Origin: Verrucomicrobiales bacterium
GTDB taxonomy: Bacteria > Verrucomicrobiota > Verrucomicrobiia > Verrucomicrobiales > DEV007
Reading direction: 5' to 3'
DNA length: 43,238 nucleotides
NCBI GenBank assembly: GCA_002726915.1
Contig: PBSY01000026.1
Coordinates: forward strand, 1-43,238
The position numbers were made by a program, and so were the translations under genes. This document shows positions 2,087-27,854 of the stretch, piece after piece; the stretch's first letter is position 1; each line of letters begins with the position of its first letter. Under the pieces are notes generated by a model that saw nothing but the letters and a program-made list of their open reading frames with translations, did no database searches and was not told the origin of the DNA.

Positions 2087-4489
2087 CTAATTTGCATCCT
2101 TTTTGTCCTGTTTCTTGCTGATCTCTTTCAGCAGGGTCAAGATTTGGGGGGGAGTGGCTGGGAGAGGTAGATCAATGTTGAGATTGGTATTGAAGCCAAT
2201 TGAACGAAGGGCCTCTAAAAGCGCCTCGCGCACGGAACCTGCCAGAAGGACCGGCGCCTCGCCGCACGGGTCTCCCGGCGCGGTCTTAGGTGAGCCGCGT
2301 GGTCGCAGTCGATCTGTCACGATCTGGAATGGAGCATCAGCGAATCCAGGGATTCTCTCCTCGATGGGACAAAGATCCGCATGCTCGTTTTCGGGGTCGG
2401 TTGCGATCTCGGACAACATCCAACCAGAACCAAGCGTGAAGGCTCGCATTAACTGGGCAAAATCGCGGTCTCCTTGGTTGGCTGACGGTGAGCCTTCGTG
2501 GGCAATGTCGACACGGAGAATCTGTATCTCCCCGGTGAAAGCATCCAATTGGATTTCAGCAACAGCTGTGGCGTAGGTGAATGAGGTGAATGGCCACCCG
2601 GCTCCAAGTTCTGGATCCCACCAAAGATTCGGGGTGCGATGGTATCCATTTTCAATCAAACTGACGCGTTTGCGCAGCGCTCCTTCGATGACTTCCTTAA
2701 AATGCAGCGGGGCGTTCCCCGTGGAATCCGTTCTGACTGCACCGCGTGAAAAGCGAATTGCCTCCATTTCGATCTCGGTCTGGCCGCGAGCAGCGAACAT
2801 CTGAAAGGCGACCTCTCTAAGCCGCTTCGTTAGTCGACCACAAGCATCTTCTAGTGCACGCAGGATAAGCCCGGAAGCATCTGTTCCAATAATGGACGTT
2901 GCGCGAGGCAGGGAGTCAAAGTCATTGAGAATGACCCGTATCGCTTCCTCCTCAACCCCCAACAAGTTAGCGGCTTCTTCTCTGATCTGTGCGTCGAGGC
3001 CATCATTAGTATTAACTAATCCAACCCTAACAATGACAGAACCATCAGCTAGAATTTGGACTATGGCAGCGGCAGCGTTGCGATCAGACCTCGGGTCGCC
3101 AATGCCGAATTTGATGGGTAGTGCAGCAATGCCACGTTTGTAGCAAGAGTTCTTCGTGTTCCACTCGGTGACTGCTTTGGCGCGCTCTCTAAATTTGCTC
3201 CGGTCCAAGGCTTTGTTCCATACTCGTGAAATAGCTTCCGTATCGACAGGCTGGCCGTAAGGGGTGGTTTTTAATTGACTGCCTTCCGTGTAGAAGTTCT
3301 TTTCCCGAATCTCGCGACTGGAAAGGTTGGTTGCCTCGGCGACGCGTTGGATCACGTCTTCGGTAGCCCATGTTCCCTGTGCCGCACCCTCTGCTGGAAG
3401 AGATGAGGAAACAGTACGATTTGTTTGGCAGAGCTTCGCACTGATTGAGAGGTTCGGAAAATCATAGACAGAATCTGCATGCAGCAGGGCCCGATCCACC
3501 GCGTTCTCAGAGTTTGCCGCATACCAACCACCTTCGAGAGTAAGATCCATCTTGACGCCGTTGATCGTCCCGTCTTTTTCGAAGCCGACTTCATATTGCG
3601 CCTTGGTGCGATGTCGGGTTCCTCCGGCGAGTGGCGAGTGTGGGGAGGTGACATGAAGTGTTACCGAACTCCCGCAGCGTTTTACGGCGTGAGCGGCGAG
3701 AGATGCGAGCCTAACAGGTTCGGTTTCAAGAGAACCAATTGGGCCAGGCAGGTCGACCGGTTCGATATGAATGTTAGACTCGGGCACATCAGTGGTTTTA
3801 GCGACGGCGGAGCGTACTGCTGTTGGCAAAAGGCAACTGGCATGAATGGTAAAACCTATGCCATCTAGCAGTGGTTTTACGGTAATTTTCGTGCCTCCTT
3901 CGAGACAAGTCCGTTGCGGGGCAATCGAGAGCGAGCCACGCAGATTTTTTGCTGACTGATTGATTGCCTTAGATGCATCGCCACGTTCGCAGGTTTTTGT
4001 TTCCCCATGAAAGCTACTCATTGTGATAGCATGATCGAGCGTGAGTATTCCGGGAGTGACGTGATAATCGATTTCGATCAGTGACGCCGCCCTTTGACAG
4101 GTAGCGAGGTCGATTGCCACAATGACAGCGACAGGTTGCCCGCGGAAATGCACTTCATCTTCGGCGAGGAGCGGTTCGCTTGAGTATTCCGCTCCAAGTG
4201 CGTTTTGGAACGGGGGGAGATCAGAAGCAAAGAGGATGCAAGAGACCCCTCCAAGTGCTCTGGCCGCTTCTGCGCTTTTTCGAGCGATGGAGGCGGAGGC
4301 GTGGGGGCTTTCAACAACAATAGCAGATAGATTGCGGGCCTTAGACTGCCAAGTTAGGGCTGGAGGCATTTCGGCATCGATTAATTCTTGGCGACGCCTT
4401 CGAAGCCTTTCTCCAAAGGTTTCGGACTCACCCGTAGATTTGTTCTCCGGCAGCCGAAATTGGATTGTTTTGTCGTCGGATCCACTCAT
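2087..4489 (-). CDS. Xanthine-dehydrogenase-like molybdopterin subunit with degenerate active-site motifs
   Basis: The protein is 800 residues from the ATG at 4489; a longer frame begins with a TTG at 4564 inside the upstream gene and is less likely. Order follows the XDH large subunit: a/b hammerhead at about 50-150, then molybdopterin-binding domains to about 765. Recognisable segments are RHRTKAQYEVGFEKDG (292-307), FTYATAVAEIQLDAFTGE (637-654) and GEAP (743-746), which holds the equivalent of the catalytic Glu. Other hallmarks are altered. The usual GGGFGGKE is GPIGSLET (249-256), the FRGFGGPQG arginine loop is SSLPAEGAAQG (362-372), and MGQG is TNDG (494-497). The 26-bp gap to the FAD-subunit-like gene implies an operon. 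It may bind a different cofactor, act as a pseudoenzyme, or be a diverged hydroxylase; xanthine activity should not be assumed. Confidence 0.75.
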   Translation of the reverse strand: MSGSDDKTIQFRLPENKSTGESETFGERLRRRRQELIDAEMPPALTWQSKARNLSAIVVESPHASASIARKSAEAARALGGVSCILFASDLPPFQNALGAEYSSEPLLAEDEVHFRGQPVAVIVAIDLATCQRAASLIEIDYHVTPGILTLDHAITMSSFHGETKTCERGDASKAINQSAKNLRGSLSIAPQRTCLEGGTKITVKPLLDGIGFTIHASCLLPTAVRSAVAKTTDVPESNIHIEPVDLPGPIGSLETEPVRLASLAAHAVKRCGSSVTLHVTSPHSPLAGGTRHRTKAQYEVGFEKDGTINGVKMDLTLEGGWYAANSENAVDRALLHADSVYDFPNLSISAKLCQTNRTVSSSLPAEGAAQGTWATEDVIQRVAEATNLSSREIREKNFYTEGSQLKTTPYGQPVDTEAISRVWNKALDRSKFRERAKAVTEWNTKNSCYKRGIAALPIKFGIGDPRSDRNAAAAIVQILADGSVIVRVGLVNTNDGLDAQIREEAANLLGVEEEAIRVILNDFDSLPRATSIIGTDASGLILRALEDACGRLTKRLREVAFQMFAARGQTEIEMEAIRFSRGAVRTDSTGNAPLHFKEVIEGALRKRVSLIENGYHRTPNLWWDPELGAGWPFTSFTYATAVAEIQLDAFTGEIQILRVDIAHEGSPSANQGDRDFAQLMRAFTLGSGWMLSEIATDPENEHADLCPIEERIPGFADAPFQIVTDRLRPRGSPKTAPGDPCGEAPVLLAGSVREALLEALRSIGFNTNLNIDLPLPATPPQILTLLKEISKKQDKKDAN

Positions 4490-20835: not shown

Positions 20836-22122
20836 TTAGACGGGACGCTTACCTGCGAGCTCGCAGAGGCGCTTCTTTAATGCGTCGAGACCGTCTCCGT
20901 TCTCAGCAGAAATAGGAAAGACCTCTTGCTTGGGGAATCGGGTTTTAAGGGCTTCAAGGTAAAGGCTCGACTCTTCGAGATCGATCTTGTTGGGGACGAT
21001 CAACCACGGGCGCTCACCCAGTTCTTCGTCATAGAGACAAAGCTCTTTGCGAAGAATTTGGATATCTGAGATGGGATCGCGCTGGTCGACTGCGGCGGTG
21101 TCGACGACAAATAAGAATATCGAGCATCGACTGATGTGGCGCAGGAAATCGTGACCCAGCCCGACGTTGGCATGGGCACCTTCAATCAGTCCCGGAATAT
21201 CAGCAACCGTGGCACGGTAGAAACCCGGAAAATCAACCACTCCAACCATCGGCTTCAGAGTGGTAAACGGGTAGGCTGCCACTTTTGGCGTGGCATTTGA
21301 AAGTGTAGTGAGCAAGGTCGACTTGCCTGCATTAGGAAAACCAACGAGGCCGACGTCAGCGATCTGCCTAAGCTCGAGGTAAAACCAGTCTTCCTCTCCT
21401 TTCTCGCCCATGGTGAACTCAATAGGAGCTTGGTTGGTATCGGTTCGGAAGTTCCAATTGCCCTTGCCGCCGATTCCTCCGCTGCAGAGATTGAAGGTCT
21501 GACCGATTTCAGTGAGGTCAGCTATCAATTCGCCGTAGGGGTGTGATTCTTCTGCCGGAAGCTCGAAATCCTCGGCGTCTTCGCCATCGACAAAGAATTC
21601 GCTGCTGCCTTCCTCTTCGGCGTGCTCGTTGGCGACTTTTTCGGTAGCTTCGGCCTCCTCTGTTCGAGCGGAATCCTTATCGTCTGTTTCCTCCTCCTCT
21701 TTAGGCATGGTTCTATCCATGACCACCATTTGCCCTTCCTCATCTTCGATGAACTCTCCCGCCCAATCAGCTGCAGAGAGGTCGGGTTCTTCGAATTCAT
21801 CGTTTTCCTTCTTGAGGTGATGGGGCTCTGATCGGTAGACGATTGTTCCTGGTGGAACCTTCAAGACAAGATTCTTTCCAGACTTACCCGTCTTTCGCTG
21901 ACCCTGCCCATGCATGCCGCGCTCGGCTTTCTGGTTTGGGCGGTAGAAGAACGCTTTCAGGTTATCTGTGTGATGATCGACCTGAAGGATCACATCGCCA
22001 CCCCGACCGCCATCACCGCCGTCCGGACCACCTTTTGGCTCAAATTTTTCGCGACGAAAGCTGGAGCAGCCGTGGCCGCCGTCTCCAGCCTTCGCAAAAA
22101 TCTTTATATGGTCAACAAACAT
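20836..22122 (-). CDS. obgE: Obg-family GTPase (ribosome assembly) with large acidic insertion
   Basis: The protein has 428 residues from the ATG at 22122, which matches the family start MFVDHIKIFAKAGDGGHG; the longer frame is rejected. The Obg domain runs from 1 to about 253 and contains the glycine-rich GGPDGGDGGRGGDV (31-44) and GGIGGKGNWNF (215-225) blocks. It is split by about 100 extra residues (97-197) rich in Glu and Asp, between PPGTIVY and GELIADLTEIGQ, which are normally almost adjacent. The GTPase domain follows: G1 GFPNAGKS (261-268), G2 YPFTTLKP, G3 DIPG (308-311), G4 NKID (378-381), G5 SAEN. The C-terminal OCT domain is missing. It acts in 50S assembly and stress control in the cytoplasm. 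The gene is followed by cimA. Confidence 0.95.
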   Translation of the reverse strand: MFVDHIKIFAKAGDGGHGCSSFRREKFEPKGGPDGGDGGRGGDVILQVDHHTDNLKAFFYRPNQKAERGMHGQGQRKTGKSGKNLVLKVPPGTIVYRSEPHHLKKENDEFEEPDLSAADWAGEFIEDEEGQMVVMDRTMPKEEEETDDKDSARTEEAEATEKVANEHAEEEGSSEFFVDGEDAEDFELPAEESHPYGELIADLTEIGQTFNLCSGGIGGKGNWNFRTDTNQAPIEFTMGEKGEEDWFYLELRQIADVGLVGFPNAGKSTLLTTLSNATPKVAAYPFTTLKPMVGVVDFPGFYRATVADIPGLIEGAHANVGLGHDFLRHISRCSIFLFVVDTAAVDQRDPISDIQILRKELCLYDEELGERPWLIVPNKIDLEESSLYLEALKTRFPKQEVFPISAENGDGLDALKKRLCELAGKRPV

Positions 22123-22191
22123 GGAAGCAACGTGATGGAAAGAAAAGGTCAAGAACTGTCGATAGCTTGCCGACCCTGAGCCGCAATCCAT

Positions 22192-22721
22192 AGCACGGAA
22201 ATGCAGTGATTGAAAACCAGATGAATGTGGGGGCCTCTATTTTAACCAGTTTTTCACGAGTTATTCACAGACTTGTTCTTCAAGTTATTCACACTAGAGG
22301 CGTTCAATGTGAACAATCTTAAGCGTCTCTCATCGGGCCAATGTAACTAGACACAAAAGCCCTAATGCTTTAATTTTGAATGACTTGGGATGACTATAAA
22401 GTCTCTTTATTCGCGTAAAAGAAAATTCAAAACGTTGATGGTCAATGGGTTATGTAGAATAGGGTAGTGTTAGTTGCTAAGTGAAAATTAGGTCTACGTT
22501 TTGAGCAATAATTGTATCTCTTGTGGCAATGAAAGTTCATCGATTGGGTCAACCAGCGGGAGTTTTTCACAGGTTCTCTATCTGAATCGGGATTACTTCG
22601 AGTTATTCACAGGATTATTCACAGAGTCTTTAATCGTGTAAAAAGTGGCATTACATCCCGTCAGGTATTTTGTAATTGCCTGTGTGAGGCCAGTGAGAGA
22701 ATATTGGGAAATAGTTCATTG
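22192..22721. other. DnaA-box cluster: candidate replication origin or DnaA-binding locus
   Basis: This 530-bp gene-free region between divergent obgE and the AI-2E permease has four exact TTATTCACA sequences, all on the plus strand: 22261-22269, 22285-22293, 22603-22611 and 22615-22623. All fit the DnaA consensus TTATNCACA. Near matches are TTTTTCACG (22251-22259), TTTTTCACA (22563-22571) and TTGTTCACA on the minus strand (22308-22316). The 14-mer CGAGTTATTCACAG occurs at both ends (22257 and 22599). Between the two pairs lie about 300 bases, largely AT-rich, that could serve as an unwinding region. By chance fewer than 0.01 exact boxes would be expected in this length. dnaA and dnaN are not nearby. 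Confidence 0.65.
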
Positions 22722-24131
22722 ATGGAATCGACTGAGACTGAAACTGCCAAAAAGCCGAAGATGGAGTATCCGTCTCGATTTCAAAGGCGGACCCTTTGGA
22801 GCGCGATCACGGCTTCTTCTATCGTCGTTATCGGCGCCGTTGTTTTGGGCTTCATTTTGCTTATTGGCATGGTCCTCGGATATCTGCAGCCGGTTCTCGT
22901 ACCACTGGCTTTGGCCGGAATTGTTGCCTATCTGCTTCAGCCGATTGTGGATTGGCTTCGGAAGCGTGGCTGGCCGGATCGGCGAGCGATGATGGTCGTC
23001 TTTGTTGGCTTTCTTACGTTGATTGCCGGGTTGATGGTGATGGTGGTTGTCCCAGCCTTCGGGCAAGCGAGTGAGGTCCTCGAAAATTCCGATCAGATAC
23101 GGGAGGACGTCGTTGGTCTGCTGAAAAAAGGAGCCAGTTCGGCCGAGCCCTACGTGAGTGCCGGTATCACGAAGGAGTATTACGACAAGGGGATCGATTG
23201 GATTGGTAACGAAGGGCCGGCGGTGGCTTCAAAGATCGGCCAATGGTTGTGGAGTCGCCTAAGTGGTGCGTTTGGATTTTTTGGCTATCTCCTCGGGCTT
23301 CTCCTCGTCCCGATCTACCTCTTTTATTTCCTGAAAGAGGGCCGTAAGATTTCCCAAACTTGGGCTGACTATGTCCCGCTTCGCGCTTCACACTTTAAAG
23401 ACGAAGTGGTGGGAACCCTGACCGAAATCAACGGCTACCTGATTTCGTTTTTCCGTGGACAGATGGTGGTCAGCCTTATCGATGGTGCCTTAATTGCTAT
23501 CGCTCTATCGCTGCTGGGAGTGCCGTATGCACTTCTCATAGGTGCTTTCCTTGCGATCCTTGGGTTGATTCCCTACATCGGGAATCTTCTCGTCATGATT
23601 CCCGCAATCATTATCGCGATTGCCCACTTTGGGGCCACTGAAGTTGGAACTGTAGTCGGTAATGATCCGCCCGAAGTTGGAAAGGTGGCCAAGGTCGAAT
23701 TTGTTGACAGTGACGGCGAGACTCGGGTTAGGGCGAAGGTCGTCAGTGAAGTGTTGGATGACGGCGGGAGAGCAGAGATTCGCGTGAACGCCTGGAATTG
23801 GCTGCCCAATGTGTGGGCTTATCCCCTCATTGTGCTCGCTATTTTTGTCATTCTTCAGCAGATCAACGGACTTGTCACGGCTCCGAGAATTGTCGGCGAT
23901 TCAGTGGGGCTACACCCCCTGACGGTGATCTTTTCGGTCCTGTTCTGGTCGCTGCTTCTCGGTGGATTGCTAGGGGCACTGCTCGCCGTCCCACTTACAG
24001 CCTCAGTGAAGGTGCTATTTGTGCGTTACATTTGGGAGAAGCGCCTTGAGCCTGTTGTTGAAAAGCGTCTTGCTACTGAAGACAACGAGGATTTTGGTGA
24101 CAATGAGCGGGAAGAACCGTCGCTTGCGTAA
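22722..24131 (+). CDS. AI-2E family transporter (PerM-like) with inserted soluble domain
   Basis: The protein has 469 residues from the ATG at 22722; a TTG 18 bases upstream is possible. Residues 30-110 hold helices 1-3 and 190-460 the rest, a total of eight as in the AI-2E/UPF0118 family, with a periplasmic stretch between. The family block LAILGLIPYIGNLLVMIPA is at about 278-296. An unusual insertion of roughly 60 hydrophilic residues (about 303-362; GKVAKVEFVDSDGE, then RAEIRVNAWNW) splits the last helices and looks like a small beta domain. The C-terminus is acidic. Substrates of this family are varied and mostly unproven (autoinducer export, Na/H exchange). It is the first gene to the right of the DnaA-box region, followed by moxR after 50 bp. 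Confidence 0.85.
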   Translation: MESTETETAKKPKMEYPSRFQRRTLWSAITASSIVVIGAVVLGFILLIGMVLGYLQPVLVPLALAGIVAYLLQPIVDWLRKRGWPDRRAMMVVFVGFLTLIAGLMVMVVVPAFGQASEVLENSDQIREDVVGLLKKGASSAEPYVSAGITKEYYDKGIDWIGNEGPAVASKIGQWLWSRLSGAFGFFGYLLGLLLVPIYLFYFLKEGRKISQTWADYVPLRASHFKDEVVGTLTEINGYLISFFRGQMVVSLIDGALIAIALSLLGVPYALLIGAFLAILGLIPYIGNLLVMIPAIIIAIAHFGATEVGTVVGNDPPEVGKVAKVEFVDSDGETRVRAKVVSEVLDDGGRAEIRVNAWNWLPNVWAYPLIVLAIFVILQQINGLVTAPRIVGDSVGLHPLTVIFSVLFWSLLLGGLLGALLAVPLTASVKVLFVRYIWEKRLEPVVEKRLATEDNEDFGDNEREEPSLA

Positions 24132-27684: not shown

Positions 27685-27732
27685 TGGTTGAATTGGTTGA
27701 ATTGGTTGAATTGGTTGAATTGGTTGAATTGG
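27684..27732. repeat. 9-bp tandem repeat adjoining the outer membrane protein start codon
   Basis: TTGGTTGAA is repeated five times plus a 4-base partial copy, without a mismatch. The first base of the array is the last base of the CAT (ATG) start codon of the minus-strand gene, so the untranslated leader next to the start is made entirely of TTCAACCAA units. An in-frame stop at 27736-27738 bounds the reading frame upstream. Slippage would alter leader length by 9 bases per unit. Confidence 0.97.
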
Positions 27733-27854
27733 AAATCAGACTGGGTTGGATTGAGCCCAGAATCTTTCCGTCAAAATTCATAAAACAGAAAGATGCTCAA
27801 GATCCGAGAGGATCTGAGTGAGTGGCCACTAGAAAGGTGGCGGGACCTTGACCG

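Follow-up and report, generated by a model that had tools for sequence, protein, structure and literature searches.

The gap between obgE and a divergently transcribed permease gene in a member of the Verrucomicrobiales holds a compact group of DnaA boxes, and this raises the question of whether the gap is the chromosomal origin, oriC, lying away from dnaA as a sequence-only reading had proposed, or a site of another kind. We examined the locus in a stretch of 43,238 nt (hereafter, the window) from a Verrucomicrobiales bacterium (GCA_002726915.1, contig PBSY01000026.1, positions 1–43,238, forward strand), in its own genome (G000; 3.53 Mb in 102 contigs) and in related genomes, among them those of its genus, g1; the closest related contig encodes an ObgE of 92% identity. 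The gene for the Obg GTPase, obgE (20836..22122, minus strand; PF01018, PF01926), has a start codon backed by the conserved motif ATGTTYGTYGA, and its neighbor, which encodes a PerM-like permease of the AI-2E transporter family, occupies 22722..24131 on the plus strand (PF01594). As had been described, three genes on each side are all directed away from the gap, and dnaA is not near the cluster but on another contig, C86. The gene-free gap also exists, although its length, counted between the obgE ATG at 22122 (minus) and the permease ATG at 22722 (plus), is nearer 599 bp than the 530 bp first claimed. Elsewhere in the window (~27685–27735, minus strand), the open frame ahead of the gene whose product begins MKSLQ has the short tandem repeat FPIQPIQPIQPIQPIQP immediately before the start.

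Four exact copies of the box TTATTCACA, all on the plus strand, form an obgE-proximal pair (22261..22269 and 22285..22293) and a permease-proximal pair (22603..22611 and 22615..22623, 12 bp apart). These positions match the single orientation and the in-pair spacings of 15 and 3 bp reported earlier, and the 14-mer said to be common to both ends of the cluster, CGAGTTATTCACAG, was read at each. Two near boxes with one mismatch each lie at 22308..22316 (minus strand; TTGTTCACA) and 22563..22571 (plus strand; TTTTTCACA), and the spacer between the pairs (22294..22602) is indeed A+T-rich, with 38.8% G+C against 52.1% for the window. The boxes are also, as claimed, beyond chance: at the observed genome rate of exact sites, the probability of at least four boxes in 373 bp is ~7 × 10−13 per position and ~2 × 10−6 genome-wide. 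Outside the cluster no further match to TTATNCACA was found in the 43-kb window. The genome as a whole contains 19 exact TTATTCACA sites, compared with 8 for a reversed control pattern, and same-facing box pairs within 30 bp of each other occur in it at the obgE locus only.

A cluster of DnaA boxes (four exact and two with one mismatch), an A+T-rich spacer and divergent flanking genes all speak for an origin in this gap, as does the dnaA neighborhood, which was rejected as the origin, no strict box occurring within 1.5 kb of dnaA. A dense DnaA-box cluster with divergent genes is nevertheless insufficient in itself to call oriC, and GC skew points the other way. A skew minimum had been expected at 22.2–22.7 kb, but no sign change was found in the window or across the corresponding gap in G004 (250 kb), G008 (300 kb) and G012 (119 kb). 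Window skew has positive values to the left (0.066) and to the right (0.105) of the gap; the strand-averaged third-position skew climbs across it from ~0.03 to 0.19, which would favor an origin, while keeping its sign. Across obgE, all 13 stretches of G004:C65 and all six of G012:C4 have negative skew, and 14 of the 15 stretches of G008:C36 have positive skew, the exception being the last one, far from obgE. On G025:C50, where obgE lies in the first of five stretches, all are negative, the last two near zero. The obgE locus does not mark a replichore boundary.

The gap after rnc is a better candidate and the likely oriC of the genus. On G012:C3 the skew switches at 68 kb, within 1 kb and inside the 200-bp gap after rnc, and this gap or its edges carry TTATTCACA, TTATTGACA, TTATTCACG and TTGTTCACA; further out, the skew returns to weakly negative values in two short stretches (140 and 160 kb). 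The rnc gap of the window's own genome (C38:174.5–174.7 kb) is organized in the same way and shows a small local skew switch, with 1.5 kb covered on its right, and in both genomes dnaA is on a different contig from the rnc gap. In both, the gap separates convergent genes, rnc and a glycosyltransferase-9 gene (L281, G012:C3, positions 4232–4455; L282, G000:C38, ~174.5–174.7 kb). All seven fully listed genomes (G000, G004, G008, G012, G020, G025 and G030) have an exact TTATTCACA no more than 200 bp from the 3′ end of rnc. A core motif, TTATTCAC-N3-TATAATAA, was found with at most one mismatch at 12 places in 11 of 56 genomes, while its reversed control gave none; rnc was located in 14 g1 genomes, in 10 of which the core stands 150–177 bp past the rnc match, and the eleventh core genome, G026, is outside that set. 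G007 has a second copy 4.1 kb further on.

This candidate has its own gaps, which lend some weight to an origin at obgE: the core is absent at this threshold from 45 of the 56 genomes, including 22 of the 33 of the genus, and from four of the 14 genomes with rnc located (G004, G016, G029 and G030 gave no match), and G025 shows no skew switch at rnc, which lies at 113 kb, its skew changing at 145 kb instead. Against an origin at obgE, the skew sign is constant across the gap in the window and in three relatives, whereas the rnc candidate comes with a sharp switch in G012 and a small one in G000; the rnc-type core (TTATTCACN3TATAATAA, at most one mismatch) was found at obgE in none of the 56 genomes; and the genome's own parS, although a weak guide to the origin, lies on C38 together with rnc, none having been found on the window contig. 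Because of the uniform skew sign and the rnc candidate on C38 of the same genome, we reject the obgE gap as oriC, a reading that we now regard as highly improbable; the densest exact cluster of G000 is probably not its origin.

Origin candidates elsewhere in the order bear on the box itself. In the complete genome G042, skew passes from negative to positive values in the interval 1.14–1.28 Mb, and in 4-kb steps the switch falls between 1236 and 1240 kb, with one earlier positive step at 1228 kb. TTATTCACA boxes stand in this region beside ribD, with parS 2 kb away, and the locus is likely the oriC of this genome, which belongs to another family of the order. There the boxes (L033:1480–1588; G042:C1, ~1.238 Mb) lie next to ribD and to what by eye is a hexapeptide-type gene, more than 1.2 Mb from dnaA. 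G039 switches at ~498 kb; two TTATTCACA copies lie there (497351 and 497859), and its parS is ~9 kb away, at 488 kb. The presence of TTATTCACA at both skew switches argues that the order uses it as an origin box. A run of four TTATTCACA copies with a 10-bp period occurs in a family of the order other than that of the window (L056, G036:C99:127133–127171).

As a direct origin marker parS works in G042 and G039 and was set aside for g1. It shares a contig with rnc in six g1 genomes (G000:C38:57009; G012:C3:316263; G025:C16:14542; G029:C138:69664–72610; also G004:C81 and G008:C40) at distances of 14–248 kb, 117 kb in the window's own genome, and given this spread it is a weak guide. Skew is uniform around parS in G000, G004, G012 and G025, and in G007 and G008 it goes from positive to near zero or negative there, the wrong direction for an origin.

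We then have to account for a cluster that is kept in place. Conservation was scored in 29 genus-level loci, comprising 26 of the 33 g1 genomes and three loci (L169, L186 and L189) included on ObgE similarity alone; G002, G003, G009, G013, G018 (also L165, 115 bp upstream), G019 and G027 were excluded for short or missing upstream sequence. The sequence-only reading had counted loss of the boxes in close relatives against itself, and the opposite was found: TTATNCACA occurs within 900 bp before obgE in 26 of the 29 loci, the others (L161, L163 and L166) having none in that interval while keeping obgE. The 700 bp before obgE of the 29 loci (20.3 kb) contain 77 copies of TTATNCACA, compared with 4 in the surrounding 368 kb of these loci, and 200 first-order Markov resamples gave a mean of 0.39 boxes and at most 4. 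When the upstream regions of the 26 box-bearing loci are aligned, a choice of rows that favors conservation of the box block, the sole block before the start codon at the 85% level is TGTGAATAAC(T)..GTGAA.AA. This conservation supports the alternative that the earlier reading had itself mentioned, a DnaA-titration or DnaA-regulated promoter locus. Among more distant loci, none of 19 has TTATNCACA within 900 bp of obgE, a planctomycete locus (L188) being left unscored, so the cluster looks gained in the genus and not left over. The absence from distant loci, the uniform skew and the missing rnc-type core together make it hardly credible that the gap is a relic or back-up origin, that is, a former oriC at low activity, even though two box groups flank an A+T-rich stretch as such a site might have them.

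The box block stands upstream of a less conserved, promoter-like block (TTTTC..GTGCTAT), whose alignment columns are mostly at the 70% level in the 26 upstream regions; in the window the putative promoter, TTTTCA..N..GTGCTATGG, occupies 22188..22216 on the minus strand. Across the 29 loci, 67 boxes lie on the permease strand and 10 on the other, counts in which related genomes are not independent events, and the main offsets among box-like sites are 11–12, 24 and 35 bp. The obgE distance of the box at 22285..22293 is reproduced within 3 bp in L152, L153 and L154, and the site of the near box at 22308..22316 holds an exact TTATTCACA in L153 and L154. Among the seven fully listed genomes, the obgE gap has four exact boxes in G000, G012 and G025, two in G004, G008 and G020, and one in G030. 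A permease match upstream of obgE was obtained by tblastn in 23 of the 29 loci, some of the rest having short upstream sequence, and in 11 of these 23 a box lies 108–127 bp before the first aligned permease residue. Where no permease match occurs within 4 kb (L159 and L160), boxes remain at obgE; where the obgE–permease gap is only 133 and ≤180 bp (L161 and L166), both box sets are absent. In L151 (G029:C40), dnaA is ~6 kb from obgE, and the obgE–permease gap, only 133 bp long, is without boxes.

A second group of boxes recurs within a coding sequence, that of a DUF2851 gene (PF11013), where a box pair 21–24 bp apart is followed 262–274 bp on by an inverted box (L038:1501–1792; L040, L044, L048, L052 and L053; G000:C5:56697–56965). 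The third box is present in nine of ten genomes, G012 being the exception and G004, G020 and G030 being scored by position only, and it is encoded TTA TTC ACA in all six loci read. The product of codon frequencies for this choice is 0.001–0.005 in five genomes, so that selection probably acts on the DNA here. In G000 the gene is decayed, with stops, and exact boxes persist at C5:56697 and 56957. The box pair was considered as the real oriC and discarded, with no skew switch there in G007 or G024; in G008 and G025 the skew goes from negative to near zero or positive near these boxes, a change that does not last, and on G000:C5 skew covers only ~3 kb past them, which makes no test of an origin. 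In G025 (L137–L142, C16:80–195 kb) the change falls at 145 kb, at the DUF2851 boxes, before the skew turns negative again. We report this cluster as a second DnaA-box station.

We think it probable that the conserved extra-oriC cluster makes obgE responsive to DnaA and also titrates DnaA. DnaA is the likely ligand since the origin candidates of the order carry the same 9-mer, and the boxes are identical to those candidate boxes and to the DnaA-box consensus. The genome's own DnaA has the C-terminal DNA-binding domain (PF08299), with the signature DHGTV where that of E. coli is DHTTV, and its exact box preference is for this reason assumed. DnaA would bind same-facing neighboring boxes at multiples of ~12 bp and could there start a short directed oligomer, one group of boxes being upstream of the putative obgE promoter and the other upstream of the divergent permease. 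Bound DnaA would most likely tie transcription of obgE, and perhaps of the permease gene, to the level or nucleotide state of DnaA, whichever way the effect runs, and the cluster would keep some DnaA away from oriC as a side effect. We prefer control of obgE because the boxes stay at obgE where no permease was found within 4 kb and are missing from the short gaps. As at DnaA-regulated promoters, the boxes lie upstream of a promoter, here one inferred from partial conservation, and are conserved with the gene. Against this reading, three of the 29 loci keep obgE without boxes, and in G008 and G030 exact boxes are more numerous at the DUF2851 locus than in the obgE gap. The varying distance among species between the boxes and the promoter-like block would ill suit an activator that acts at a fixed phase.

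Titration becomes the main effect in the chief rival explanation, a DnaA sink or a site altering the DnaA state that would time initiation through titration or nucleotide turnover and be incidental to obgE. The obgE gap is the densest exact cluster in G000, G012 and G025 (four boxes in ~300–370 bp), and the DUF2851 cluster, conserved inside a gene, needs no promoter. G016, which has no boxes at obgE, carries two 12-bp box pairs 293 bp apart adjoining a radC-like gene, named by eye (L047, G016:C11:6744–7057); this is either a moved cluster or the origin of that species, and it fits a position-free sink better than control of obgE. We nonetheless hold a sink to be rather unlikely, given that the box block directly precedes the promoter-like block and is retained at obgE in loci with no permease found nearby, and that one or two boxes, all that some genomes retain at obgE, would make a weak sink. 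The position of the sites next to the upstream regions of two genes and their strong strand bias would suit a different regulator that prefers TTATTCACA and controls obgE and the permease gene. This we find improbable, as TTATTCACA equals the consensus DnaA box and is found again at the candidate origins of the genus, G042 and G039.

Several known systems resemble the obgE cluster in part. DnaA-box clusters (DBCs) also occur outside the origin in Bacillus subtilis, where removal of all six is described in one review as leading to early initiation, a sign of sensitivity to free DnaA; the same review also states that they play no significant role in initiation (PMC5295017). Like a DBC, the obgE cluster comprises several boxes outside oriC that exceed chance expectation and are conserved, but here a single cluster is tied to one gene across a genus, with strong strand bias. 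The E. coli sites datA, DARS1 and DARS2 are likewise sets of DnaA boxes away from the origin, each at a fixed place on the chromosome; they act with IHF or Fis and alter the nucleotide state of DnaA (PMC5295017). Promoters described as DnaA-regulated in another review, those of E. coli dnaA and nrdAB and of Caulobacter gcrA, ftsZ and podJ, similarly have boxes upstream of a growth- or cell-cycle-linked gene, and the boxes upstream of E. coli ftsZ, later shown not to act, call for caution (PMC8203912). The main text of that review of DnaA as a transcription factor contains no mention of obg or cgtA. Among the matches listed for Verrucomicrobia or Akkermansia origins and for obg with DnaA boxes, no title or opening of an abstract concerned the obgE locus; further sources cover DnaA binding in B. 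subtilis (PMC4447404), BUS and DnaA-trios (PMC8287927) and Obg (PMC10123104). The candidate origins beside ribD in G042 and beside rnc in g1 share the box TTATTCACA with the obgE gap, but those of G042 and G012 lie at a skew switch and 11 g1 genomes carry the core, and the gap has neither.

The cluster at obgE is a real, conserved feature outside oriC, and the likely origins are placed away from dnaA, beside rnc in the genus and beside ribD in a second family (G042). The comparison makes a case for a wiring of DnaA to obgE, a gene with long-standing ties to both growth and replication, and it makes that link testable. An E. coli cgtA mutant is said, in the title of a 2006 paper, to have reduced DnaA. 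We tentatively suggest, as a possibility less likely than control of obgE itself, a closed loop in which DnaA would control obgE through the same-facing boxes and Obg would support DnaA abundance. If so, ribosome maturation and origin firing would be coupled through the loop, and the obgE and DUF2851 clusters may be two stations in a single DnaA network that spans the genus.
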